Positions 2,740-14,126 of a stretch of 34,820 bases of DNA are shown here, piece by piece. The position numbers and the translations under genes were made by a program. Below the pieces are notes generated by a model, which was given only the letters and a program-made list of their open reading frames with translations, did not search any database and was not told the origin of the DNA. Source of the DNA: Spirochaetales bacterium. Lineage in GTDB: Bacteria > Spirochaetota > Spirochaetia > Sphaerochaetales > Sphaerochaetaceae. Numbering within the stretch: the first letter of the stretch is position 1; each line of letters starts with the position of its first letter. The stretch is taken from positions 1 through 34,820 of the forward strand of contig DUPO01000026.1 of assembly GCA_012838275.1 (NCBI GenBank), read 5' to 3'.

Positions 2740-2768
2740 TACCATGGACTAGAAAGGGCAAAAAGGTG

Positions 2769-4127
2769 ATGAACAAGAACCTGCAGCTACAAGACAACAA
2801 GACCTATCTTGAACGTCAGAACAAGACCGAATCAAATGCACGAAGCTATCCCAGAAAATTCCCCATAGCCATCAAGAAGGCAAAAGGTTCCTGGATTGAA
2901 GATGTGGAGGGAAATTCCTACCTGGACTTTCTCTGCGGGGCTGGGACGTTGGCCCTCGGGCACAATGATGATGAAGTCAACCAGGCGATGATTGACCTCA
3001 TAACATCCGGAGCGCCCCTTCATACCCTGGACCTTACAACACCCATAAAAGACCGGTTCGTCGGGACCTTGTTCTCATTATTACCCCAAGAGCTTCAGGA
3101 AAATGGTAAGATACAGTTCTGCAGCCCTTCAGGAACAGATGCGGTCGATGCAGCGATCAAGCTGTGCAAGACTGCTACCGGCAGGACGTCAGTCATCGCC
3201 TTCGGCGGAGGCTACCATGGGATGGGCCACGGAGCTTTAGCACTTACTGGCAACCTCCACGCAAAAAACAGGATTAACGGCCTCATGAGTGATGTGCACT
3301 TCATGCCATACCCCTACTCCTACCGCTGCCCGTTCGGACTCGGAGGGGATCGAGGTATCGACGCTGCCTGTGCGTACTTTGAAAAGACCCTCAAGGATCC
3401 TGAGAGCGGCATTACCAAGCCCGCAGCAGTCATCCTCGAACCGATACAAGGAGAAGGCGGGGTGATCCCGGCCCCTGTGAAGTTTCTCCAGACAGTAAGG
3501 CGTGTAACCAAGGAACTGGGCATTCCTATGATAGTCGATGAGATCCAGTGCGGTATCGGTCGCTCGGGGAAATTCTTTGCCTTCGAATATGCATCCATCA
3601 CACCTGATGTCATCCTTGCTTCCAAGGCTATCGGAGGAAGTCAGCCGATGAGTGTGGTCATCTATCACAAGGATCTTGACCTGTGGGAGTCCGGAGCGCA
3701 TGCCGGGACTTTTCGCGGCAACCAGCTTGCCATGACTGCAGGGACTGTAGTGATGGAGCGTGTGAGTGACAGCTCTTTCCTTGAGGAAGTGAATGCCAAA
3801 GGCTCCTTCATAGAGCAGCGGCTGCTCAAGATGAAAGGTTCCTGTCCCATCATAGGGGACATTCGTGCGAGAGGCCTTATGATCGGCATTGAGTTCGTCG
3901 ATCCCAATGGTGAGAAAGACATGCTCGGATCGCTCCCTCCAAGCGGCACCATCGCTGCCAAGATCCAGAAAGAGTGCTTCGAGCACCGCCTTATAATGGA
4001 GAAGGGAGGCCGCTACGGATCGGTGATGCGTTGTCTGTGTGCCCTGAATGTCTCCTATGAAGATATTGAGAAGATGCTTGTGATTTTGGAACAGGCTATA
4101 CGAAAGGTGGCCGGTGATGAAACCTGA
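2769..4127 (+). CDS. dat: Diaminobutyrate-2-oxoglutarate aminotransferase
   Basis: This is a class-III, PLP-dependent aminotransferase of the EctB/Dat group, 452 residues long. It interconverts L-aspartate 4-semialdehyde plus glutamate with L-2,4-diaminobutyrate plus 2-oxoglutarate in the cytoplasm. Visible marks are the glycine-rich GGGYHGMGHGAL around residues 147-158, the PLP-nitrogen-binding aspartate in VDEIQCGIGRSG near 257, and the Schiff-base lysine in ILASKAIGG near 286. The ATG at 2769 is used rather than the GTG one codon earlier; AAAGG-type sequences precede both. Its last 11 bases overlap the decarboxylase gene that follows. No ectA or ectC is nearby, so 1,3-diaminopropane rather than ectoine is the expected route. 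Confidence 0.9.
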   Translation: MNKNLQLQDNKTYLERQNKTESNARSYPRKFPIAIKKAKGSWIEDVEGNSYLDFLCGAGTLALGHNDDEVNQAMIDLITSGAPLHTLDLTTPIKDRFVGTLFSLLPQELQENGKIQFCSPSGTDAVDAAIKLCKTATGRTSVIAFGGGYHGMGHGALALTGNLHAKNRINGLMSDVHFMPYPYSYRCPFGLGGDRGIDAACAYFEKTLKDPESGITKPAAVILEPIQGEGGVIPAPVKFLQTVRRVTKELGIPMIVDEIQCGIGRSGKFFAFEYASITPDVILASKAIGGSQPMSVVIYHKDLDLWESGAHAGTFRGNQLAMTAGTVVMERVSDSSFLEEVNAKGSFIEQRLLKMKGSCPIIGDIRARGLMIGIEFVDPNGEKDMLGSLPPSGTIAAKIQKECFEHRLIMEKGGRYGSVMRCLCALNVSYEDIEKMLVILEQAIRKVAGDET

Positions 4128-5577
4128 TACCGAGTTGCTGTACTTTCTGAACAATGAAGAGAGGACTAAAGAAGCTTACAGGAAGATGGTCACAGAGACA
4201 GTCCAAGCTATCCTTGACTCTCTCTCCGATGACAAGGCATATGCAGGACAGAGCCCCCAGGGTCTTCAGGATATCATTGGCCGCCCAACTCTTCTGCCAG
4301 AGCGAGGCCTTGGATTTCCCAAAGTCCTCGAAGAGGTGAGAAGGACAATACTTCCCAACTTCTTGAGGACCTCATCCACCGACTATCTGGCCCATCTGCA
4401 TAGCCCTGCCCTTCTTGAGAGCATCTGCAGTGAGCTGATACTCTCAACCTTCAACCAGTCGATGGACTCCTGGGACCAGGGGCCTATCGCTACTGAAATA
4501 GAGCTCCAGGTCACTAAAGAGTTGTGTAAGCTCTACGGATACCCTGAGGGCAGTGACGGCATCTTCACTTCAGGCGGCAGCCAATCCAATCTCAGTGCCC
4601 TCATGCTTGCCCGGGACTGGTTCTGCACAACACTCCTAAACCATGATGTGAAGAAGCTCGGACTGCCCCCCTCCTATGCCAAGCTCCGTCTCTATACCTC
4701 GGAGGTATCGCACTTCTCCATGGAGAAGAGCGCCCACCTCCTGGGCCTCGGATATGACGCCGTACGCAAGGTTCCCGTCGACAAGCTTTGCAGGATGGAC
4801 AGCCGAGCCCTTGAGAGCCTCATTCTCTCTGATAAGGAAGCGGGTCTTATCCCCTTCTGTGTGGTAGCCACTTTGGGCACCACCGACTATGGCAGTATTG
4901 ATAGTGTGGATGAGCTGGGTGCCATCACGAGGAGGCACAATCTCTGGCTCCATGCCGATGCCGCCTATGGCAGCGGGGTGAAGCTCTCCGATCAATATGC
5001 CCACCGTCTCGGCCCGATAGAGGTATGCGACTCCATAACAGTCGATTTTCACAAGATGTTCCTGCTACCTATCAGTTGTGGTGCCTTCCTGGTGAAGGAC
5101 GGGAAGAGTCTGGAGGCTTTTTCCCTCCATGCGGACTACCTTAATCGAGAAGAGGATGAGGAGGACGGATATTCCAACCTGGTAGGGAAATCGATGCAGA
5201 CTACAAGGCGTTTCGACGCACTGAAGGTCTGGATGGCATTCCTCACCCGTGGAAAGGATGGGTATTCGAACATCATCGACACTTGCATTGGGAATGCGGC
5301 CTACCTGTATGAGAGGGTATCGGAAAATCCTGTTTTTGAGGTTGCCATCAGACCCGAGATAAGCTCAGTGGTATTCAGGTTGCGGAAAAGTGACGGGACA
5401 AACAAGAAAGTTCGCCGTCTCCTGCTACATACACATGGAGTGGTGATAGGACAGACAGTCTATGCCAACAGGACATTCTTGAAGTTCACCCTGCTCAACC
5501 CCCTGCTGGACCATGAAAAGCTCGATGAACTGTTGCTTCTCATTGAACAGTTGGGTAAAGAGGCTGAGAAGGAGTAA
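4117..5577 (+). CDS. ddc: L-2,4-diaminobutyrate decarboxylase
   Basis: This is a group-II PLP-dependent decarboxylase of 486 residues that would convert L-2,4-diaminobutyrate to 1,3-diaminopropane and CO2. The fold marks are TSGGSQSNLSAL near residues 152-163, the ring-stacking histidine in SEVSHFSMEK near 199, the cofactor aspartate in HADAAYGSG near 281, and the PLP lysine in DFHKMFL near 313. AAAGGTGG sits six bases before the ATG at 4117. The gene overlaps the aminotransferase by 11 bases, so the two enzymes are probably made together. The substrate is assigned mainly from this pairing; alone, the sequence could belong to a related glutamate- or aromatic-type decarboxylase. No carboxynorspermidine genes follow. 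Confidence 0.88.
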   Translation: MKPDTELLYFLNNEERTKEAYRKMVTETVQAILDSLSDDKAYAGQSPQGLQDIIGRPTLLPERGLGFPKVLEEVRRTILPNFLRTSSTDYLAHLHSPALLESICSELILSTFNQSMDSWDQGPIATEIELQVTKELCKLYGYPEGSDGIFTSGGSQSNLSALMLARDWFCTTLLNHDVKKLGLPPSYAKLRLYTSEVSHFSMEKSAHLLGLGYDAVRKVPVDKLCRMDSRALESLILSDKEAGLIPFCVVATLGTTDYGSIDSVDELGAITRRHNLWLHADAAYGSGVKLSDQYAHRLGPIEVCDSITVDFHKMFLLPISCGAFLVKDGKSLEAFSLHADYLNREEDEEDGYSNLVGKSMQTTRRFDALKVWMAFLTRGKDGYSNIIDTCIGNAAYLYERVSENPVFEVAIRPEISSVVFRLRKSDGTNKKVRRLLLHTHGVVIGQTVYANRTFLKFTLLNPLLDHEKLDELLLLIEQLGKEAEKE

Positions 5578-5607: not shown

Positions 5608-5640
5608 AACAGCCCCCTAGAGTACGGGAGGCTGTTTTGC
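5608..5640 (+). terminator. Intrinsic terminator after the diaminopropane genes
   Basis: AACAGCC (5608-5614) pairs with GGCTGTT (5630-5636), with extra C/G pairs inside the loop, and TTGC follows. It lies 31 bases after the decarboxylase stop. The right half overlaps the last codons of the convergent YczE-like gene (stop at 5617), so the two genes share this sequence. The T-run is short. Confidence 0.6.
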
Positions 5641-6288
5641 TGTTTTGACCTTGCTGAAGTTCCTGAAGGTATCCATAAAGTTTTCATGCACAACCGTAGT
5701 GGGATCAAAGCGGAACAACTTGAAGGTTATCTGCACACAAAAGCCGATGAGTACGGCGGCAAGGATGGTGCCGATCCCAAAAGATCCTCCCAGTAGGGCC
5801 CCGATGACGACTACCAGGATCTCAAGGCCGCTACGGCAGGTTCCGACCGATAGTCTGGTCTTGCGGGTCAGCACCACCATAAGGCTGTCGCGCGGTCCGG
5901 CGCCAAAGCCGGAAGAGATATAGTACACGGTAGCCACCGATATGACAAACAACCCTACCACCATCTGCAACACACCAAGATAGAAATTGGAGAGTGTGGG
6001 AAAGAGATCCAAGCCAAGAAGGAGGTTCATGAACAGGCCTATGAAAACCATATTGCATAAGGTACCCAATCCCAACTTCTCTCCTGCAAGCAGGGATATG
6101 ACACAAAGGACCAGCCCTACAAGGATGGAGACAGTACCGATCTGAATACCAAAAACAGTGGAAAGGCCTGCATGAAAGACTTCCCAGGAAGCATAGCCGA
6201 TATTGGCTTTCATGGTGAGTACAATTCCTACTGCATACAGAAACAAACCTAGAAATAGGCGGATAAACCTGGTTACAAACTTATTCAT
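5617..6288 (-). CDS. YczE/YyaS/YitT-like integral membrane protein
   Basis: This is a 223-residue membrane protein with about five hydrophobic helices and the family's short conserved stretches: GIVLTMKANIGYASWEV at about 20-36 and SGFGAGPRDSLMV near 126-138. YczE-like proteins are widespread; the molecular function is unsettled, though some members are linked to lipopeptide production or transport. The start ATG at 6288 has a weak AGAGG nine bases upstream. It is a single gene between convergent and divergent neighbours, with no operon partner to suggest a substrate. The C-terminal 30 residues are polar and probably cytoplasmic. Confidence 0.8.
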   Translation of the reverse strand: MNKFVTRFIRLFLGLFLYAVGIVLTMKANIGYASWEVFHAGLSTVFGIQIGTVSILVGLVLCVISLLAGEKLGLGTLCNMVFIGLFMNLLLGLDLFPTLSNFYLGVLQMVVGLFVISVATVYYISSGFGAGPRDSLMVVLTRKTRLSVGTCRSGLEILVVVIGALLGGSFGIGTILAAVLIGFCVQITFKLFRFDPTTVVHENFMDTFRNFSKVKTAKQPPVL

Positions 6289-6388: not shown

Positions 6389-7339
6389 ATGCCATTTTTA
6401 CTCTTCCATGGAGATATTACCCAGTTGCAGACAGATGCCATAGTCAACGCTGCGAACAGGAATTTGAAACGCGGGGGTGGTGTCTGCGGTGCCATTTTCA
6501 AAGCCGCAGGGGAAAAAGCCATGCAACAGGCATGCGATAGCCTCGCTCCCATACAGACGGGACAGGCAGTCACCACCCCAGCCTTCAACCTTCCCAGCAA
6601 ATACGTCATTCACGCCGCCGGCCCAGTCTGGGAAGGGGGTATGAAAGACGAGGAAGCTCTTCTTGCAAGCTCTTATAGGAGTGCCCTGGAACTTGCATGC
6701 AGCAAAGGCTTGCGATCCATCGCCTTCCCTCTCCTATCAGCAGGAGTTTACGGCTACCCAAAAAAGCAGGCATACCGAATAGCCGTCTCCTCCATACTCT
6801 CGTTTCTCGAGAATCACGATCTTATGGTATATCTGGTCCTGTTTGAAGAGGTGTTTTTCCAGGACAACTGGCTGCGCAAGCTGAACCTTCGCCAACAACA
6901 ACCAAATGTTTTCCCCTATGCAGCAAGCTTTCAACAGGAGTGCATATCAGAATTTTGCTTCAGGGCGGCAGAGCCCTTGGCAGATGTCACTGCAGAACTT
7001 GATGAATCATTCTCCCAAACCCTCATGAGAATCATCAGGGAGAGGGACCTCAATGAGGTTACAGTCTATAAAGCGGCTAACTTGGACCGAAAGCATTTCT
7101 CAAAGATCAGGAGCAATGAAGGGTATCAGCCAAGCAAGAGGACAGCCATATCCCTAGCCTTATCGCTCAAGCTTGATAGGGAAGAGACAAACAATCTTCT
7201 CAAGAGAGCTGGGTACTGCTTAAGCCACAGCTACCTTTCCGATATCATAATCGAGCATTTCATCATAAGCCACCAGTATGATATCCATATGATCAACGAA
7301 GCGTTGTACTCGCATGGCCAACCCCTTCTCGGATCCTGA
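6389..7339 (+). CDS. Macro-domain protein with C-terminal helical/HTH-like module
   Basis: This is a 316-residue, two-part protein. Residues 1-155 are a macro domain of the ADP-ribose-binding type, with GDITQLQTDAIVNAAN at 8-23, the glycine-rich GGGVCGAIFKAAG at 29-41, and PLLSAGVYGYP at 114-124. Such domains bind or hydrolyse ADP-ribose derivatives on proteins or nucleic acids, or remove O-acetyl-ADP-ribose. Residues 205-315 form a helical module resembling a helix-turn-helix (VYKAANLDRKHFSKIRS...PSKRTAISLAL). I recall a similar C-terminal module in macro-domain and other signalling proteins of Firmicutes. GGGAGG precedes the ATG at 6389. A VWA gene follows 67 bases downstream in the same direction. 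ADP-ribose recognition with nucleic-acid or protein binding is inferred. Confidence 0.88.
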   Translation: MPFLLFHGDITQLQTDAIVNAANRNLKRGGGVCGAIFKAAGEKAMQQACDSLAPIQTGQAVTTPAFNLPSKYVIHAAGPVWEGGMKDEEALLASSYRSALELACSKGLRSIAFPLLSAGVYGYPKKQAYRIAVSSILSFLENHDLMVYLVLFEEVFFQDNWLRKLNLRQQQPNVFPYAASFQQECISEFCFRAAEPLADVTAELDESFSQTLMRIIRERDLNEVTVYKAANLDRKHFSKIRSNEGYQPSKRTAISLALSLKLDREETNNLLKRAGYCLSHSYLSDIIIEHFIISHQYDIHMINEALYSHGQPLLGS

Positions 7340-7373
7340 CAATGTCGCTTTCCAAGTGACCCCTCCCCTTCAC

Positions 7374-7404
7374 TTTCCCCCTATATTCAACATATAGGGG
7401 GAAG
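7374..7404 (+). promoter_or_regulatory. Perfect hairpin holding the VWA ribosome binding site
   Basis: Bases 7375-7386 are perfectly complementary to 7392-7403 (12 pairs), with a five-base loop TCAAC. T7374 and G7404 can extend it by a wobble pair. The right arm contains AGGGGGAA, the only Shine-Dalgarno-like sequence before the ATG at 7407. The hairpin ends three bases before that start codon. If it folds in the mRNA, the ribosome binding site is buried. No T-run follows, so it does not look like a terminator for the macro-domain gene. Confidence 0.7.
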
Positions 7405-7406
7405 AA

Positions 7407-8054
7407 ATGGAAAACAAAGGGACTGACCTGGTGTTCATCCTTGATAAGAGCGGATCGATGATGGGTCTTGAAAAAGATACCATCGGAGGATTCAACTCTC
7501 TGCTGGAAAAACAAAAAGGGGAGAAAGGCATTGTCTGGGTAACCACTGTCCTGTTTGACCACCGGTATACGATTCTGCATGACAGGCTCCCCATACAGGG
7601 GACCGATCCGATTACAGCAAAGGAATATGTCCCAGGGGGGATGACAGCCCTCTACGATGCATTGGGCAGGACTATTGAGTCGTTGCTGGAAATACCATGC
7701 AAACAGATGCATGGGAAAAAATCCTCTGCACTCTTTGTCATAATCACAGATGGCGAGGAGAATGCAAGTCATGATTATACGCTTGAGAGGATTCGCGAAC
7801 TCATTGAACTCTGCAAGGAGAGACAGGGGTGGGAATTCCTCTATCTCGGTGCGAACATCGATGCGTTTTCGGCAGCTTCAAAGATAGGCATCGACCGGGG
7901 TCGGGCCACCCGGTACCATGCCGATTCTCAAGGGGTCAGGGTAAATTTCGAAACGCTGAACAGTGCGATAGGCCAAGTGCGGGCCAGTGAAGGGATGAGT
8001 GACAACTGGAAGGATTCAATCGAAGAGGATTTCAAAAGCCGGAGCAAAGGATAA
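7407..8054 (+). CDS. Small VWA-domain protein
   Basis: This is a 215-residue protein that is essentially one von Willebrand factor A domain. The metal-ion adhesion site is complete: DKSGS at residues 13-17, threonine 80 in GGMTALYDA, and aspartate 115 in ITDGEENA. No signal peptide or membrane segment is visible, so it should be cytoplasmic. Similar short VWA proteins occur widely in Firmicutes, without a settled function that I know of. VWA domains generally bind protein partners through a divalent metal, and the partner may be the macro-domain protein encoded just upstream. Translation may be limited by the hairpin at 7374-7404. A strong terminator follows at 8081. Confidence 0.88.
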   Translation: MENKGTDLVFILDKSGSMMGLEKDTIGGFNSLLEKQKGEKGIVWVTTVLFDHRYTILHDRLPIQGTDPITAKEYVPGGMTALYDALGRTIESLLEIPCKQMHGKKSSALFVIITDGEENASHDYTLERIRELIELCKERQGWEFLYLGANIDAFSAASKIGIDRGRATRYHADSQGVRVNFETLNSAIGQVRASEGMSDNWKDSIEEDFKSRSKG

Positions 8055-8080: not shown

Positions 8081-8113
8081 GAGCCTGGATTTCAAGAAAT
8101 CCAGGCTCGTTTT
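8081..8113 (+). terminator. Strong intrinsic terminator after the VWA gene
   Basis: Bases 8081-8092 (GAGCCTGGATTT) pair perfectly with 8097-8108 around a CAAG loop, and GTTTT follows. It lies 26 bases after the VWA stop and ends the macro/VWA unit. On the opposite strand no T-run follows, so it would not clearly terminate the convergent efflux operon. Confidence 0.85.
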
Positions 8114-8147: not shown

Positions 8148-8420
8148 TTACAGGACAAAGTACCCGATTCCCTCTTGGTCATACTTCTTCTCGATCAGAG
8201 TTATTGCCTGTTCTATCCTATCAAGCATCTCTTCCTGGCAGTAGATGATAAGGATGAAGTTCTCTTCAGGCCAGACTTCATTGCCCAGCTTGGGGTTTGT
8301 GCTTCCCACCCCATGGGCAATGGGAATGATGGTATATTTCTTTGGCACACCATAGTGTTCCAATGCATCCAGAAGATCCTCCTGGATGGCTTGGGCCGCG
8401 ACGATCTCTACCCTTTTCAT
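8148..8420 (-). CDS. PG0541-family transporter-associated protein
   Basis: This is a 90-residue cytoplasmic protein with an alternating strand/helix pattern like the PII-related ferredoxin-like folds. It matches what I know of the PG0541 family, small proteins encoded beside RND efflux pumps. The N-terminal MKRVEIVAAQAIQEDLLDAL and the segment KKYTIIPIAHGVGS are the recognisable parts. Its ATG overlaps the stop of the RND pump gene (ATGA at 8417-8420), so expression is coupled to the pump. The role is unknown; a regulatory or assembly function for the pump is a guess from this linkage. Confidence 0.8.
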   Translation of the reverse strand: MKRVEIVAAQAIQEDLLDALEHYGVPKKYTIIPIAHGVGSTNPKLGNEVWPEENFILIIYCQEEMLDRIEQAITLIEKKYDQEGIGYFVL

Positions 8421-11400
8421 AACACTTCTCCTTCTGCAAACGATTCTATGCTCTCCACATCACGCTTCTTTTTGTCACTGTTGAAGAGGGAATAGAGCAC
8501 GGGGGTGAAGAAGATGGTCATGAGAGTGCTTATGGCCATCCCTCCGACAATTGTCTTTCCCAGTGGCTGGATCTGCTCGGCTCCTGCCCCTCCGAAGAAG
8601 GCCAGGGGGATCATGCCGAAGATAGTTGTAAGGCTGGTCATCAAAATAGGCTTGAGACGGTTGCCCCCCGCTTCGATACATGCGCTTCTCAAATCCATTC
8701 CCCGCTTCCGCAGCAAATTGATGTAGTCAATCAGGACAATGCCGTTGTTTACCACAATGCCGGCAAGGACTACTACACCGATGGCAGATATAAGGCTGAA
8801 GGTCTCTCCTGTAAACAGGTAGATCCCAACAACACCAATTGCCATCAGAGGGATGGACAGGAGGATGATAAATGGATTCTTGAGGGATTCGAACAGGCTG
8901 GCCATGACTCCAAAGACAAGGATGATCGCCAGGAGGAGGATGATGATCACATGGCGGAACATCGCATTCATGTCGGCAAAGTCCCCTCCAAACTCAATAT
9001 AGACCTCATCGCTGAGCACCAGATGCTCATCTATGAGGGCTTTGATATCCTTCTCAACTGTGGTTGATGCATAGCCGTCGGCAAGACCGCCAACAACATG
9101 CACTGCTCGAATCTCATCTTCACGATTGATGGAAACAGGTCCTGTCGACCGCTTCACCGTTGCCAAGTTGGCAAGGGATATCTTCTCCCCCAATGGGTTT
9201 CGGACAAAAATCTTATCAATGTCCATCTCACTGGAACGGTCCTCTTTGGAGAGCAGCACTTTCACATTGGTATCACTACCATTTGTCTTGAGCTGGGTGG
9301 CAGTGATGCCATTGAAGCTGTTGCTAACCTCACTGGCGATACCCTGCATGGTCAGTCCATAGGAGTATGCCCTTTCACGGTCTATCTCTATCTCCAGTTG
9401 AGGGAGCCCTTTACTGAAGTCAGTCCTTGGTTCGGTCACTGCTGGCAGGTTTTCAGCTATGAGGGCCCTTATCTCCTCTGCTGTGGAGGCTGCAAGGTCG
9501 AGGTTGTCACTCTTGATGATCACGTCGACAGGGTTAACATTTCCCAACCCCATGGAGAGCGTGGAAAAAGCAAAGGATGCAGCCGGATAATCATCAAAAT
9601 AGGTACGCAGTTTCTCTTGTACTGCAAACATATCATCTATCTGCTCATTACTGTCTGGAAGGGATATTTGCAGCGTTCCGCTATTTCCACCACCTGCACC
9701 GAAGAGCCCCCCGCCGCCTACTGTTACAATGATATCCTTATATCCTCGGATATCATTTTTTGCCTTTTTCTCAATGTCCCTGAGTATGCCTTCTGTCGAT
9801 TCGAGAGTGGAACCTTCTGGAAGGGTAACTGTCAAGGAGACTGAAGTTTCGGACATCGTAGGATACAGAGTCGTATTCATTGCAGAGAAGGCTTGCACAG
9901 TTATGACCATGATGAGGACAACCAACAGGAGTGAGAGCCACTTGTAGTCTATCAGCAGAGCCAGTACACGCTTGTAACCCCTGTCCAGCGCTTCAAAAGC
10001 CGCTTCCATCGCATCATCCAGAACTCTGAGAACTTTGATCCTCAAGGGTTTCTGTTTGCGGGTGTAGATCTTCACATAGGAGCTGGAGAGCACCGGTATG
10101 AGAGTGATGGAGACAACAAGGGAAGCTACCAACGATATGACGATGGTAGCAGCCATGGGCGTAAGCATCTCACCGAGCATCTCCAGGTTGCTACGCAACA
10201 ACAGGATGGGAATGAAGACACAGATTGTCGTCAGTGTCGATGCTGAGATGGCAACGACCATCTCCTTGGTACCGAGCAGTGCGGCAGTCTGCAGCTTGGA
10301 GCCTCTTTCACGGTAACGGAAGATGTTCTCAAGCACGACGATCGAGCTGTCTACCGTCATACCCAGGCCCAGTATCAAACCGGTCAGAGTCATCAGGTTA
10401 AGTGAATACCCCATGAAGAACATTATCAGGATGGTAAGCAACATGGAGATCGGGATGGCCAAGCCGACGATAAAGGTGGACTTCATGCTACGAAGGAAGA
10501 TGAAAAGGACCACCATGACCAAGAGCACACCATACGCCAGCGACTCATACACCGTGGAGATGGTTGATTCGATCATCTCGGTGGTGTCGATGGCGACATA
10601 GAGACTCACCCCTTTGGGCAACTCCGCATTGAGGGAGTCGATAACCTTGTAGATCTCCTTGGCAACCTGAACGCTATTGGCATCGGACTCCTTGGAGACA
10701 GAGAGATAGACACCGCTCTCTCCATTTATATACACCTTGGAGGTTGCATCCTGATAAGCATAGGAGACATCTGCGATGTCCTTGAGCTTTACAGGAACAG
10801 TCGAACTGACAGTCCCTGTGGCTGTGTACTTGGGAAAGGATGTGACAAGCACATCCTCAATCTCTTCAATGGAGGTGAACTGGGCGTCGGTGCGCAACAG
10901 GTAGGAGATAGCACCTTCAGTGATGGAGCCCGCCCCTATCTGGTAGTTCTGCGGATTCAATGCCATTGCCACCTGGCTGAGGGTGACCGAATATGCCTCC
11001 AACCTGTTCTGATCCACAGCAACCTGGATAAATCGGTCCTGTCCGCCGTTGATGACAGTGGATGAGACACCGGCAACACGCTCAAGTTTTGCCTGGATGC
11101 TATCCTTGGCAATTGTCCTGAGTTCGTTGGCATCTTGGCCGTTGGAACCGATGACTGCTATATTCATGATCGGCATCATGTTGGTATTCAGCTTAAAGAT
11201 AGTAGGGCTTGACGCGTCATCGGGGAAAAAGTCTGCATAGAGGTTGAGATTGTCATTTATTGACTGGCTGGCCTTATCAAGGTCGGTGCCATATTTGAAC
11301 TGGATCATCACCATGCTGAATCCCTCTGCTGAGGTCGAATTTATTGATTCGATTCCTCCCACATTGGAAATCGCGGCTTCAAGATTCTTGGTGACCCGCT

Positions 11401-11581
11401 CTTCCATGGTCTCGGGACTGGCTCCAGTATACGAGGAGTAGATGACAACCATCGGAAGGTCCATCTCAGGGAAGAGCTCTACGGCCAGGTTAGGAAAAAC
11501 CACAACGGCCAAGACCATCAGCAGGGTGTAGATGATGAGGACTGTGGTGGGTCTACGTACTACGGTATCGGTTAAACTCAT
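8417..11581 (-). CDS. RND efflux transporter permease (AcrB/HAE family)
   Basis: This is a 1054-residue inner-membrane pump with the standard RND plan: an N-terminal membrane helix (RRPTTVLIIYTLLMVLAVVVF), a large periplasmic loop, a bundle of helices, and a second copy of the same arrangement. In the fourth helix the usual pair of acidic residues (VDDAIVV in AcrB) reads VDSSIVV, so only one aspartate remains. The tenth helix reads VVNNGIVLIDY. It would export drugs, dyes or lipophilic compounds using the proton or sodium gradient together with the adaptor and TolC genes upstream. GGGGAG lies five bases before the ATG, and only 10 bases separate it from the adaptor stop. No local regulator is present. 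Confidence 0.92.
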   Translation of the reverse strand: MSLTDTVVRRPTTVLIIYTLLMVLAVVVFPNLAVELFPEMDLPMVVIYSSYTGASPETMEERVTKNLEAAISNVGGIESINSTSAEGFSMVMIQFKYGTDLDKASQSINDNLNLYADFFPDDASSPTIFKLNTNMMPIMNIAVIGSNGQDANELRTIAKDSIQAKLERVAGVSSTVINGGQDRFIQVAVDQNRLEAYSVTLSQVAMALNPQNYQIGAGSITEGAISYLLRTDAQFTSIEEIEDVLVTSFPKYTATGTVSSTVPVKLKDIADVSYAYQDATSKVYINGESGVYLSVSKESDANSVQVAKEIYKVIDSLNAELPKGVSLYVAIDTTEMIESTISTVYESLAYGVLLVMVVLFIFLRSMKSTFIVGLAIPISMLLTILIMFFMGYSLNLMTLTGLILGLGMTVDSSIVVLENIFRYRERGSKLQTAALLGTKEMVVAISASTLTTICVFIPILLLRSNLEMLGEMLTPMAATIVISLVASLVVSITLIPVLSSSYVKIYTRKQKPLRIKVLRVLDDAMEAAFEALDRGYKRVLALLIDYKWLSLLLVVLIMVITVQAFSAMNTTLYPTMSETSVSLTVTLPEGSTLESTEGILRDIEKKAKNDIRGYKDIIVTVGGGGLFGAGGGNSGTLQISLPDSNEQIDDMFAVQEKLRTYFDDYPAASFAFSTLSMGLGNVNPVDVIIKSDNLDLAASTAEEIRALIAENLPAVTEPRTDFSKGLPQLEIEIDRERAYSYGLTMQGIASEVSNSFNGITATQLKTNGSDTNVKVLLSKEDRSSEMDIDKIFVRNPLGEKISLANLATVKRSTGPVSINREDEIRAVHVVGGLADGYASTTVEKDIKALIDEHLVLSDEVYIEFGGDFADMNAMFRHVIIILLLAIILVFGVMASLFESLKNPFIILLSIPLMAIGVVGIYLFTGETFSLISAIGVVVLAGIVVNNGIVLIDYINLLRKRGMDLRSACIEAGGNRLKPILMTSLTTIFGMIPLAFFGGAGAEQIQPLGKTIVGGMAISTLMTIFFTPVLYSLFNSDKKKRDVESIESFAEGEVL

Positions 11582-11591
11582 ATATTCTCCC

Positions 11592-12533
11592 CTACTCCAC
11601 TATCCGCACAGAGGTGCCATTGGTAAGGAGGGTTTGTCCTTGACTGATGACCATCTGCCCTTCCTTCAAACCTGAAACGACCTCAAGATCATCATCAACG
11701 ACAAGCCCTATCTGTATATATTTCTTTTCCGCAAGTGAATCATTACCTACCACATACACATAGGCCTTGTTTCCCTCATAAAGGACGTTTGATCGTGAGA
11801 TCACCAGCACATCGGTGAGCTTGTCGGTAAGTATGGTGACACTCGGAAACATACCGCTCTTTATCATAAGGTCAGGATCTTCGAGGCTGATCCCAATCTC
11901 AAGAGTCCTGCTTGCCGGATTAAGGACGGGACTTAGGCGTGTCACCTCACCGACAAACTCCCGGGCGGGGTATGCCTTGAAGGTAGCAACAGCCCTGGTG
12001 CCCAACTGCACACTTCCAACATAGCGTTCTGCAATGTCCATCTCAACTTCCAAGGCCTCAAGCATGCCTATGCGAAACAGAGGGGCCTGGGGGGAGACTG
12101 AAGCACCTTTGGCAAAATTGACTGCGAGGATAGTTCCTGAGACGGGAGCCTTTACCTCACTCTCCTTATAGACAACACCGGCACGAGAAGGGTCGATCTT
12201 TGCGAGGACCTTGTCCTTCTCAACCCTGTCGCCAACCTTGGCCTCAAGGTAGGTAAGATTGCCCACCACCTCCGGATAGACATCCAGAGCTTTGGGATCG
12301 ACGACATTCCCGTTGCCCCGTATGTAGTTTTGCATAGTCATGCGTACTACCGGGGCTGCTGAGACTGCGATGGCCGGTTTTTCATCATCACCAGCCACCT
12401 CAGCTCCTGAAGCTGGGTTCAATGCCTTGATATTGGCAAATGGATTGAGGACTATGACTGCAACAGCAGCCGCTATTATCAGCAATAGGATGACAAGGCC
12501 AACCTTTTTCTTTTTATTCGTTTGTTCGCTCAT
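11592..12533 (-). CDS. RND periplasmic adaptor (membrane fusion protein)
   Basis: This is a 313-residue adaptor of the HlyD/AcrA type. Residues 10-30 form one membrane anchor (VGLVILLLIIAAAVAVIVL), with no lipobox cysteine. A barrel-sandwich (lipoyl-like) domain follows, with GNLTYLEAKVGDRVEKDKVLAKI and the matching half VKAPVSGTILAVNFAKGASV. Beta-barrel and membrane-proximal segments complete the protein. The alpha-helical hairpin found in AcrA is almost absent, because the two lipoyl halves are joined by only a short linker. It bridges the pump to the outer-membrane channel. The ATG at 12533 follows the TolC stop by five bases, with AAGGAG 11 bases upstream. Confidence 0.9.
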   Translation of the reverse strand: MSEQTNKKKKVGLVILLLIIAAAVAVIVLNPFANIKALNPASGAEVAGDDEKPAIAVSAAPVVRMTMQNYIRGNGNVVDPKALDVYPEVVGNLTYLEAKVGDRVEKDKVLAKIDPSRAGVVYKESEVKAPVSGTILAVNFAKGASVSPQAPLFRIGMLEALEVEMDIAERYVGSVQLGTRAVATFKAYPAREFVGEVTRLSPVLNPASRTLEIGISLEDPDLMIKSGMFPSVTILTDKLTDVLVISRSNVLYEGNKAYVYVVGNDSLAEKKYIQIGLVVDDDLEVVSGLKEGQMVISQGQTLLTNGTSVRIVE

Positions 12534-12538
12534 GGCTA

Positions 12539-13864
12539 CTACAGCTCCTTCGAAAGGGTATTTGTATCGATATTCAAGTCATACATCAGGTCGACCAGTG
12601 CAGTTACATATTGGTAGTGCAAACCAAGCATATTCTGCTGTGCCTTCAGAAGGTCCCCTTGGATCTTCTCCACCTCAAGGTATCCGGTATAGCCGCCCTC
12701 ATACTGGGCCATGGTCATTCCATAGACCTTCTCGGTGAGAGAGAGGTTCGAACGGGCAACTTCAAATTGCTCAGTGATAGCATTGAGGTTGCTGATGCGG
12801 GCAATAAGGGCTTGTTCCAACTGCTTCTTGGTCTGAGATCGTGTCAGGAGCAACTTGTCTATGGCATCCTGCATCTTTGCCAGGGAGACTTGCGTCTGGG
12901 AACCTGCTATATGTCCATCGAGGGGGATGGATACAGCAATGGAGAACTGGGTGGTATCATTCCACTGATCGGCAGCAGGGAATACCACAGAAAGACTCTC
13001 CGGTTTGGGATACGCATAACTTATTCCATAGGAGCTGCTCAAAATGACAGTGGGCAAGAGGGAGGCCTTGCCCTGTAGGGCCTTGGTGTTCTTCAAGGTT
13101 GCCAAGTTGAGGTCGAGCAGGACCAGGTTGTAGTTCTGTTCAAGGAATAGCTTCAGATATGCCAAGTCCACTGCAAAACCAGAGGATGGCACCTCCCCTT
13201 CCAAATCCAAATCCTCTGCCAGGTCCAGGCCCAACAGCACCTTAAGGGAGAGAAGGGCTGATTCATAGGAGTTCTTGGTCTGGGTGTAGGATGGCTTGAG
13301 AGCTTCATAGGCGAGCTCAGAGGAAAGGAGTTCCAACTCCGAGGCAAAGGAGTTCTCATACTTGGACCTGACCTCTTCATATTGTTTTTTTGCCAAGTCC
13401 AGATTGGCTTGTTGGAGAAGGAGATTCTCCTTTTCCATAAGGAGGTAGTAGAAGGACTTGGTGATATCCCTCTTGAGGATAGCCCTGCCTTGGGCATACG
13501 TGACACTTTGCACCTTATACTCCAGCCTGGCAGCTTCCATCTGCTCTTTGATGGAAGGGTTTAGCATGAGGTTTGCAGAAAGGGTGAGTCCTGTTTGGGT
13601 TTTGAGGTCAGAAGAGCTTATGAAGGTCCCTACTCCGCCACCATATGACAAGGTGGCCTCCACCTTAGGCAAGAAGATGTTCCAAAGAGTATCGACGCCG
13701 CGTTGAGCTCCCTTGAGGTCGACCATGTTCGCTTGTAAGGAGAGATTGTTCCTATAGGCAAGTTCAAGGGCATCGTCCAGTGTTAGGGATCGCGCATGCA
13801 GACCGGGAAATCCCAGCAAGCACAAGAGAAAGACAAGACAGAGCGGCAGATTGTGTTTATGCAT
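12539..13864 (-). CDS. TolC-family outer-membrane efflux channel
   Basis: This protein is about 441 residues long from the ATG at 13864. An in-frame GTG at 13897 would add 11 residues before the signal peptide and is not preferred; GGAG lies 10 bases before the chosen ATG. Residues 1-24 form a signal peptide ending in FPGLHA. The mature part begins SLTLDDALELAYRNN, the usual TolC-family opening, and continues as long amphipathic helices in two repeats. It forms the outer-membrane exit duct for the pump encoded downstream. As first gene of the efflux operon, its upstream region should hold the promoter. Confidence 0.9.
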   Translation of the reverse strand: MHKHNLPLCLVFLLCLLGFPGLHARSLTLDDALELAYRNNLSLQANMVDLKGAQRGVDTLWNIFLPKVEATLSYGGGVGTFISSSDLKTQTGLTLSANLMLNPSIKEQMEAARLEYKVQSVTYAQGRAILKRDITKSFYYLLMEKENLLLQQANLDLAKKQYEEVRSKYENSFASELELLSSELAYEALKPSYTQTKNSYESALLSLKVLLGLDLAEDLDLEGEVPSSGFAVDLAYLKLFLEQNYNLVLLDLNLATLKNTKALQGKASLLPTVILSSSYGISYAYPKPESLSVVFPAADQWNDTTQFSIAVSIPLDGHIAGSQTQVSLAKMQDAIDKLLLTRSQTKKQLEQALIARISNLNAITEQFEVARSNLSLTEKVYGMTMAQYEGGYTGYLEVEKIQGDLLKAQQNMLGLHYQYVTALVDLMYDLNIDTNTLSKEL

Positions 13865-14126
13865 AATATGTATACTCCAAAGGGATAGAAGCATCACATG
13901 CTTAAGGTGTTTCTCAAACCGGCAAGATACTCAGCCTCAGCGCTGAGCTACCTCTTGGAACAGAATCACCAGATATGAAGAATCCATGCTTCCAAAATGC
14001 AATATAGTACTTTTTTGCACTTTATTCTAGCTTAGGAAAAATAGTAAGCAGAGTGTCAAATTTGTTTGCGACGAAACGAATAATCCTATCCGAGGAAACA
14101 ATCATTGATGAGGGAGTGTCTCTCCC
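13865..14126. other. Leader/promoter region of the efflux operon
   Basis: No gene is apparent here. On the minus strand a TTGACA (14056-14061) is present, but no good -10 lies at the right distance, and the later TAGAAT and TATATT boxes lack matching -35 boxes, so no promoter is assigned. A small hairpin (CTCAGC, GCTGAG) lies at 13931-13948. The region begins with the diguanylate cyclase terminator hairpin. Confidence 0.4.

Follow-up and report, generated by a model that had tools for sequence, protein, structure and literature searches.

A conserved operator between a macro domain-HTH gene and a VWA gene suggests a one-component transcription factor that may sense ADP-ribose

The window analyzed here, i.e., a 34,820-nt stretch of DNA from a Spirochaetales bacterium (contig DUPO01000026.1 of assembly GCA_012838275.1), contains a gene for a 316-residue protein composed of a macro domain and a C-terminal helix-turn-helix-like module (macro-HTH; 6389–7339, + strand), which is followed by a gene for a 215-residue VWA protein (7407–8054, + strand). 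Between these genes lies a 19-bp near-palindrome, TGTCGCTT-N3-AAGCGACC, which is conserved together with a −10 box at a fixed distance. The macro-HTH protein is probably a one-component transcription factor, more plausibly an activator than a repressor, with the VWA gene as its main target. This reading of a transcription factor and its target is based on the conserved promoter between the two genes, which is also found before unlinked ADP-ribosylglycohydrolase genes. In the proposed mechanism, an ADP-ribose-type ligand would bind to the macro domain, and the Cro/C1-like module, probably as a dimer, would bind to TGTCGCTT-N3-AAGCGACC centered at −42 and activate a promoter that has a −10 box and lacks a −35 box. 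The VWA gene would be the main target, joined in other genomes by ADP-ribosylglycohydrolase genes, and a hairpin would hide the VWA ribosome-binding site in read-through transcripts.

The gene pair and its surroundings

An earlier note, made from the sequence of this window, had described two genes in the same direction ended by a strong terminator. The two-gene layout is borne out by the open reading frames, both of which are on the + strand. The terminator-like hairpin (8081–8113, + strand) is indeed stable, with a 12-bp stem (8081–8108) and a folding energy of −21.4 kcal/mol; however, it is followed by GTTTT, i.e., a T run of four bases only. Neither protein of the pair matches the PADLOC anti-phage models, and no ADP-ribosylglycohydrolase gene lies beside the pair in the window.

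Directly 5′ of the pair region, positions 2766–5577 contain a diaminobutyrate aminotransferase gene (TIGR00709) and an L-2,4-diaminobutyrate decarboxylase-like gene, which probably form a 1,3-diaminopropane/norspermidine route, and a YczE-like membrane protein gene (5617–6288) stands ahead of the pair. After the pair, on the opposite strand, 8148–13897 encodes P-II-like, RND-type pump, adaptor-like and TolC-like proteins.

The macro domain

The earlier note had also proposed an ADP-ribose-binding macro domain fused to a helix-turn-helix-like module, and this architecture is supported by a Pfam Macro match at residues 19–132 (E 2.7e-40), by weak HTH matches in relatives of the protein, and by an AlphaFold2 model (mean pLDDT 88) with two domains, i.e., a macro domain at residues 1–155 (6389–6853, + strand) and a helical module at residues 197–308, both with pLDDT >90, connected by a linker at residues 161–192 (6869–6964, + strand; pLDDT <50) that is predicted to be disordered. 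The closest fold to the macro domain is YmdB (5cms; Z 28, 43% identity by VIA-align), and the domain shares with MacroD-type macrodomains (YmdB, MacroD1/2) the fold, the ADP-ribose cleft, and the NAAN and SGxYGYP loops. It differs from them in its fusion to an HTH module and in the catalytic motif, in which GGGVCGAIF replaces GGGVDGAIH, so that the MacroD catalytic Asp/His become Cys33/Phe37. Among 60 relatives, C33 is present in 47 and F37 in 48, whereas Asp/His are kept in 12. For macro domains of the Cys/Phe type, in which the catalytic residues are replaced, sensing of ADP-ribose or a related molecule is a more likely role than its cleavage, while the 12 domains with Asp/His may be active enzymes.

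The C-terminal module

The C-terminal part of the window protein has no significant Pfam match, and in its relatives the modules show weak Cro/C1-type matches (HTH_19 in 5/10, HTH_3 in 4/10, as well as HTH_31; E about 0.001–0.005). In the AlphaFold2 model, the helices at residues 208–218, 223–229, 234–242, 250–259 and 264–273 follow the Cro/C1 order, as judged from the whole-protein model alone. The fold-search matches listed cover the macro domain only and thus are not evidence against an HTH fold in the module (residues 197–308; 6977–7312, + strand), for which a Cro/C1-like identity is suggested by the weak profile matches together with the predicted fold. The putative recognition helix, RKHFSKIRS (residues 234–242; 7088–7114, + strand), is preceded by D233 and belongs to a near-invariant DR[KR].FSKIR motif. 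The module resembles Cro/C1-type (XRE) regulators, e.g., lambda cI, in its predicted helix order and putative HTH motif and in the palindromic site at the proposed controlled promoter, but differs from them in the weak sequence match, the extra C-terminal helices and the macro sensor.

In a tree based on few columns, the module of the window clusters with one member of its genus, apart from the other genus members, which suggests horizontal transfer. In Coriobacteriia, the matches (L257–L270) are mostly small stand-alone proteins of ~140–170 residues aligned to the module over their whole length, apparently a related and undescribed HTH family.

The operator and its promoter

The putative operator TGTCGCTTTCCAAGTGACC (7343–7361, + strand; center at about −42) is followed after exactly 20 nt by a −10 box, TATATT (7382–7387, + strand), and by a predicted transcription start, the A at 7394 (+ strand), where the consensus has a pyrimidine-A. 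Across 77 non-redundant upstream regions, the consensus logo reads T-GTCGCTT-N3-AAGCGAC-C, followed by a TATCCT/TATAAT-like −10 box and the pyrimidine-A; the invariance of the outer bases is partly by construction because the dyad search fixed them, while no constraint was placed on the inner bases, on the T and C at the flanks, or on the −10 box and its spacing. The T-A of the −10 box is found at a single spacing of 20 nt in 76 of the 77 loci. No −35 box is visible in these aligned regions, and the extended −10 TG is partially conserved (44/77 and 49/77 loci).

The operator pattern occurs only once in the whole genome from which the window derives, once per genome in 10 of 24 genomes of the genus, and about once in most of 16 named genomes. 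In 905 kb of sampled DNA, 76 sites were found at ≤2 mismatches, compared with 4 in shuffled sequence. One half-site reads GTGAC in six loci whose helix is of the K/R type, the window among them, a finding that counts against the proposed recognition of the operator by this helix. As a cause of the GTGACC half-site in Sphaerochaeta-like genomes, an exchange of H and L in the recognition helix was considered and dropped, given the exceptions L098, L135 and L160.

An RNA hairpin, i.e., a terminator or processing site of the macro-HTH mRNA, could in principle produce such a palindrome in place of a DNA operator, since a 7-bp stem is possible and T runs follow it in a few loci (L139, L161 and L127). 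However, it is the sequence itself that is conserved and not its pairing alone, including a T ahead of the dyad and a C behind it, T runs are missing from most copies, the distance to the −10 box is fixed, and an Rfam search of the window and 12 loci gave no family for the intergenic element, all of which makes an RNA element very improbable.

The position of the operator bears on the sign of control. Lambda cI acts on PRM from a site centered at −42, and this position, together with a −10 box lacking a −35 box, makes activation the most likely mode for the macro-HTH protein. The main alternative, though rather unlikely, is repression: the macro-HTH protein would sit over the −35 region of the VWA promoter and come off once its macro domain has bound ADP-ribose, as has been proposed for Nudix-HTH regulators of ADP-ribosylglycohydrolase systems. 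The site does overlap the −35 region, the partial extended −10 TG (44 and 49 of 77 loci) could give basal transcription without a −35 box, and negative regulators have been suggested for related systems (section 3.8 of PMC9503650). However, contact with RNA polymerase is the better explanation for a spacing of exactly 20 nt in 76/77 loci and for the missing −35 box, and the position of repressor operators is usually less fixed.

Folding further predicts a hairpin, TTTCCCCCTATA/TATAGGGGGAAG (7375–7403, + strand), between the VWA ribosome-binding site and the stretch 5′ of the predicted start; this hairpin would hide the Shine-Dalgarno sequence in read-through transcripts only. Averaged over 75 loci, the Shine-Dalgarno sequence had an unpaired probability of 0.20 with its own upstream stretch, compared with 0.29 with swapped stretches (p 2e-5), 0.39 with the own stretch shuffled, and 0.71 for transcripts from the predicted start; part of this effect reflects a general pyrimidine-rich composition, since the swapped control also lowers accessibility. 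The predicted hairpin fits a device against VWA synthesis from read-through mRNA, so that most VWA would come from the controlled promoter.

Association of the module with the operator

The strict promoter and the module were scored in 245 evenly drawn Clostridia genomes, with the promoter found in 55, the module in 68 and both in 52 (Fisher 5e-35, a value that is too small since the genomes are related). Of the module genomes, 16/68 lack the strict promoter, and 3/55 promoter genomes have no detected module. These three genomes would agree with another DNA-binding protein acting on the operator while the module merely travels with the operon. However, among 79 viral contigs selected by their VWA gene, the operator tracks the module and not the VWA gene: all 15 loci with the module have an in-register operator at the VWA or module gene (variant forms counted), compared with 1 of 64 module-less loci, whose contig ends just upstream. 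Further evidence against a different binder is given by stand-alone modules of ~163–171 residues, which have no macro domain and are divergent from VWA across the operator (L283–L286), an arrangement also observed in a spirochaete of another family (G033), where a stand-alone HTH gene faces VWA across the operator. Targets unlinked to the module keep the operator as well, with the ADP-ribosylglycohydrolase or VWA gene located on a different contig from the module in L278–L280. In L170/L171, the operator lies ahead of a stand-alone module gene.

Half-sites also change along with the recognition helix. In a clade whose helix reads S/T-R/K-Q in place of D-R-K/R (K/R235 to Q), one or both half-sites are changed (TTGAC, TTTAC or GTCAC), whereas members of the class with a D-R-K or S-R-K helix keep the canonical site; the TTTAC form is single-copy and confined to genomes of the Q clade. 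Independent origins of this change were considered and rejected, as the tree gives a single origin (support 99/87). Thus, the helix/operator change counts as one event, which supports recognition of the operator by the module but does not prove it. Taken with the co-occurrence in Clostridia and with the viral, stand-alone and unlinked loci, this change suggests that the C-terminal module probably binds the operator, as a dimer, and makes a different binder quite improbable.

The operator and −10 box are also found before a type I restriction hsdR gene (L281, 2703, − strand) and before a SIMPL-ADP-ribosylglycohydrolase gene pair (L276, 577, + strand); these genes are possible further members of the regulon, or the sites may be there by chance.

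Distribution and gene neighborhoods

The earlier note had called for the adjacency of the two families to be tabulated across genomes, with a chance adjacency in one lineage as the outcome that would count against a functional unit. In the genus of the window, 16 genomes encode the full macro-HTH protein followed by VWA on the same strand, mostly with a gap of ~65–100 bp, and the genes around the pair differ between three settings. When GTDB was scanned with the C-terminal module, >580 relatives were obtained, and 71 of the 80 loci kept have a same-strand VWA gene, mostly directly downstream, in Clostridia and Bacilli (Bacillota), Chloroflexota, Actinomycetota and Spirochaetota. Such adjacency greatly exceeds chance expectation, and as it recurs across phyla it is not the accident of one lineage. 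The module was also found on viral contigs, in two phage records and in seven plasmid-collection records.

In some loci, an extra gene, e.g., a DNA alkylation repair enzyme gene in L074, separates the macro gene from the VWA promoter. The distance from the extra gene to VWA is steady in most such loci (~75–126 nt), which ties the intergenic element to VWA instead of the macro gene. An ADP-ribosylglycohydrolase (PF03747) gene lies directly after VWA or between both genes in about nine loci, and several loci have McrB-like and McrC genes immediately upstream.

The constant adjacency, together with YmdB, a hydrolase, being the closest macro fold, might also be explained by direct interaction of the two proteins, in which the macro-HTH protein would act as an ADP-ribose hydrolase together with VWA, a metal-dependent partner. 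However, Cys/Phe stand in place of the catalytic Asp/His in most members, VWA has its own predicted regulated promoter, the macro-HTH and VWA genes can be unlinked (L279), and stand-alone modules remain associated with VWA although they lack a macro domain, so there is little probability in such a two-protein unit. The suggestion of a signaling or defence unit built on ADP-ribosylation survives in part: the pair is widespread, ADP-ribose-related and often near McrBC, phage or plasmid contexts, but the intergenic promoter fits a transcription factor and its target rather than two partners in one complex.

Two viral contigs (L154 and L155) carry genes for macro-HTH, ADP-ribosylglycohydrolase and VWA, with an operator before each of the last two. 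Behind these come genes for an AAA_28 (NadR-kinase-like) protein and for another macro protein, and, judged by its predicted gene products, the whole is an ADP-ribose/NAD cluster.

Relation to known systems and implications

NrtR, a Nudix-HTH repressor of NAD metabolism that senses ADP-ribose, likewise combines an enzyme-derived ADP-ribose-binding domain with a DNA-binding domain in one protein, a combination that is predicted for macro-HTH; the two differ in their targets and in the folds of sensor and HTH, which are unrelated. DarTG and macro-sirtuin modules are likewise two-gene units that contain a macro domain and lie near defence genes, but the pair described here has no ADP-ribosyltransferase or sirtuin partner. 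The macro-HTH/VWA system resembles, and would work like, those in section 3.8 of Iyer et al. 2022 (PMC9503650), in which ADP-ribosylglycohydrolases are accompanied by Nudix-HTH or WYL factors and vWA chaperones. As described in that section, they share with the present loci a proposed network of sensor-HTH factor, ADP-ribosylglycohydrolase and vWA with no coupled ADP-ribosyltransferase; among the present loci, the ADP-ribosylglycohydrolase gene lies next to VWA or behind the operator in genomes other than that of the window. They differ in that here the sensor is a macro domain (with no Nudix or WYL factor), the core target is VWA and the operator is defined. The hosts named in the section are actinobacteria, planctomycetes and proteobacteria, whereas those of the present loci are mainly Bacillota, Coriobacteriia and Spirochaetota, and the section does not mention the macro-HTH/VWA arrangement. 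The literature searched, which included few subscription journals, gave no precedent for macro-HTH regulators or for macro domains as sensors in bacterial transcription.

Since the macro-HTH protein appears to control VWA through an operator that is conserved from spirochaetes to Clostridia, bacteria may switch genes via ADP-ribose sensing by a macro domain. More tentatively, and with rather more doubt than confidence, these proteins could form an undescribed, widespread class of macro-domain activators, with copies on phages and plasmids, that read ADP-ribose-type signals, e.g., from phage- or defence-driven NAD+ consumption, and switch on VWA and ADP-ribosylglycohydrolases to deal with ADP-ribosylated macromolecules. 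If so, macro domains would be bacterial transcription sensors of ADP-ribose, the operator would mark ADP-ribose-responsive genes in hundreds of gut and anaerobic bacteria and could serve as a reporter for ADP-ribose signals in phage infection, and a large orphan VWA family would gain a function. The definition of the operator makes this reading directly testable.

The VWA protein

The Pfam match of the VWA protein is weak (E 8e-4, below the curated cut-off), and the predicted fold is a single confident VWA domain (pLDDT 92, pTM 0.90). A complete metal site, as the earlier note had read from the sequence, is confirmed by the MIDAS residues D13, S15, S17, T80 and D115, none of which varies among 50 relatives. 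The protein has no apparent transmembrane segment or signal peptide, in agreement with a cytoplasmic location. For the vWA proteins of related systems, a role as chaperones of modified proteins that bind peptides in a metal-dependent manner has been proposed (Iyer et al. 2022, PMC9503650), and by analogy the VWA protein may also bind modified proteins with the help of its metal, a role that is the weakest step of the proposed mechanism.

The single VWA protein of the window gave nothing as a query against viral sequences. Many phage contigs (L174–L239) encode close VWA homologues without module or operator. No ADP-ribose theme is seen among the neighbors of these module-less viral VWA genes, which are mostly genes of nucleotide metabolism and phage replication, often ribonucleotide reductase, dUTPase and ThyX.
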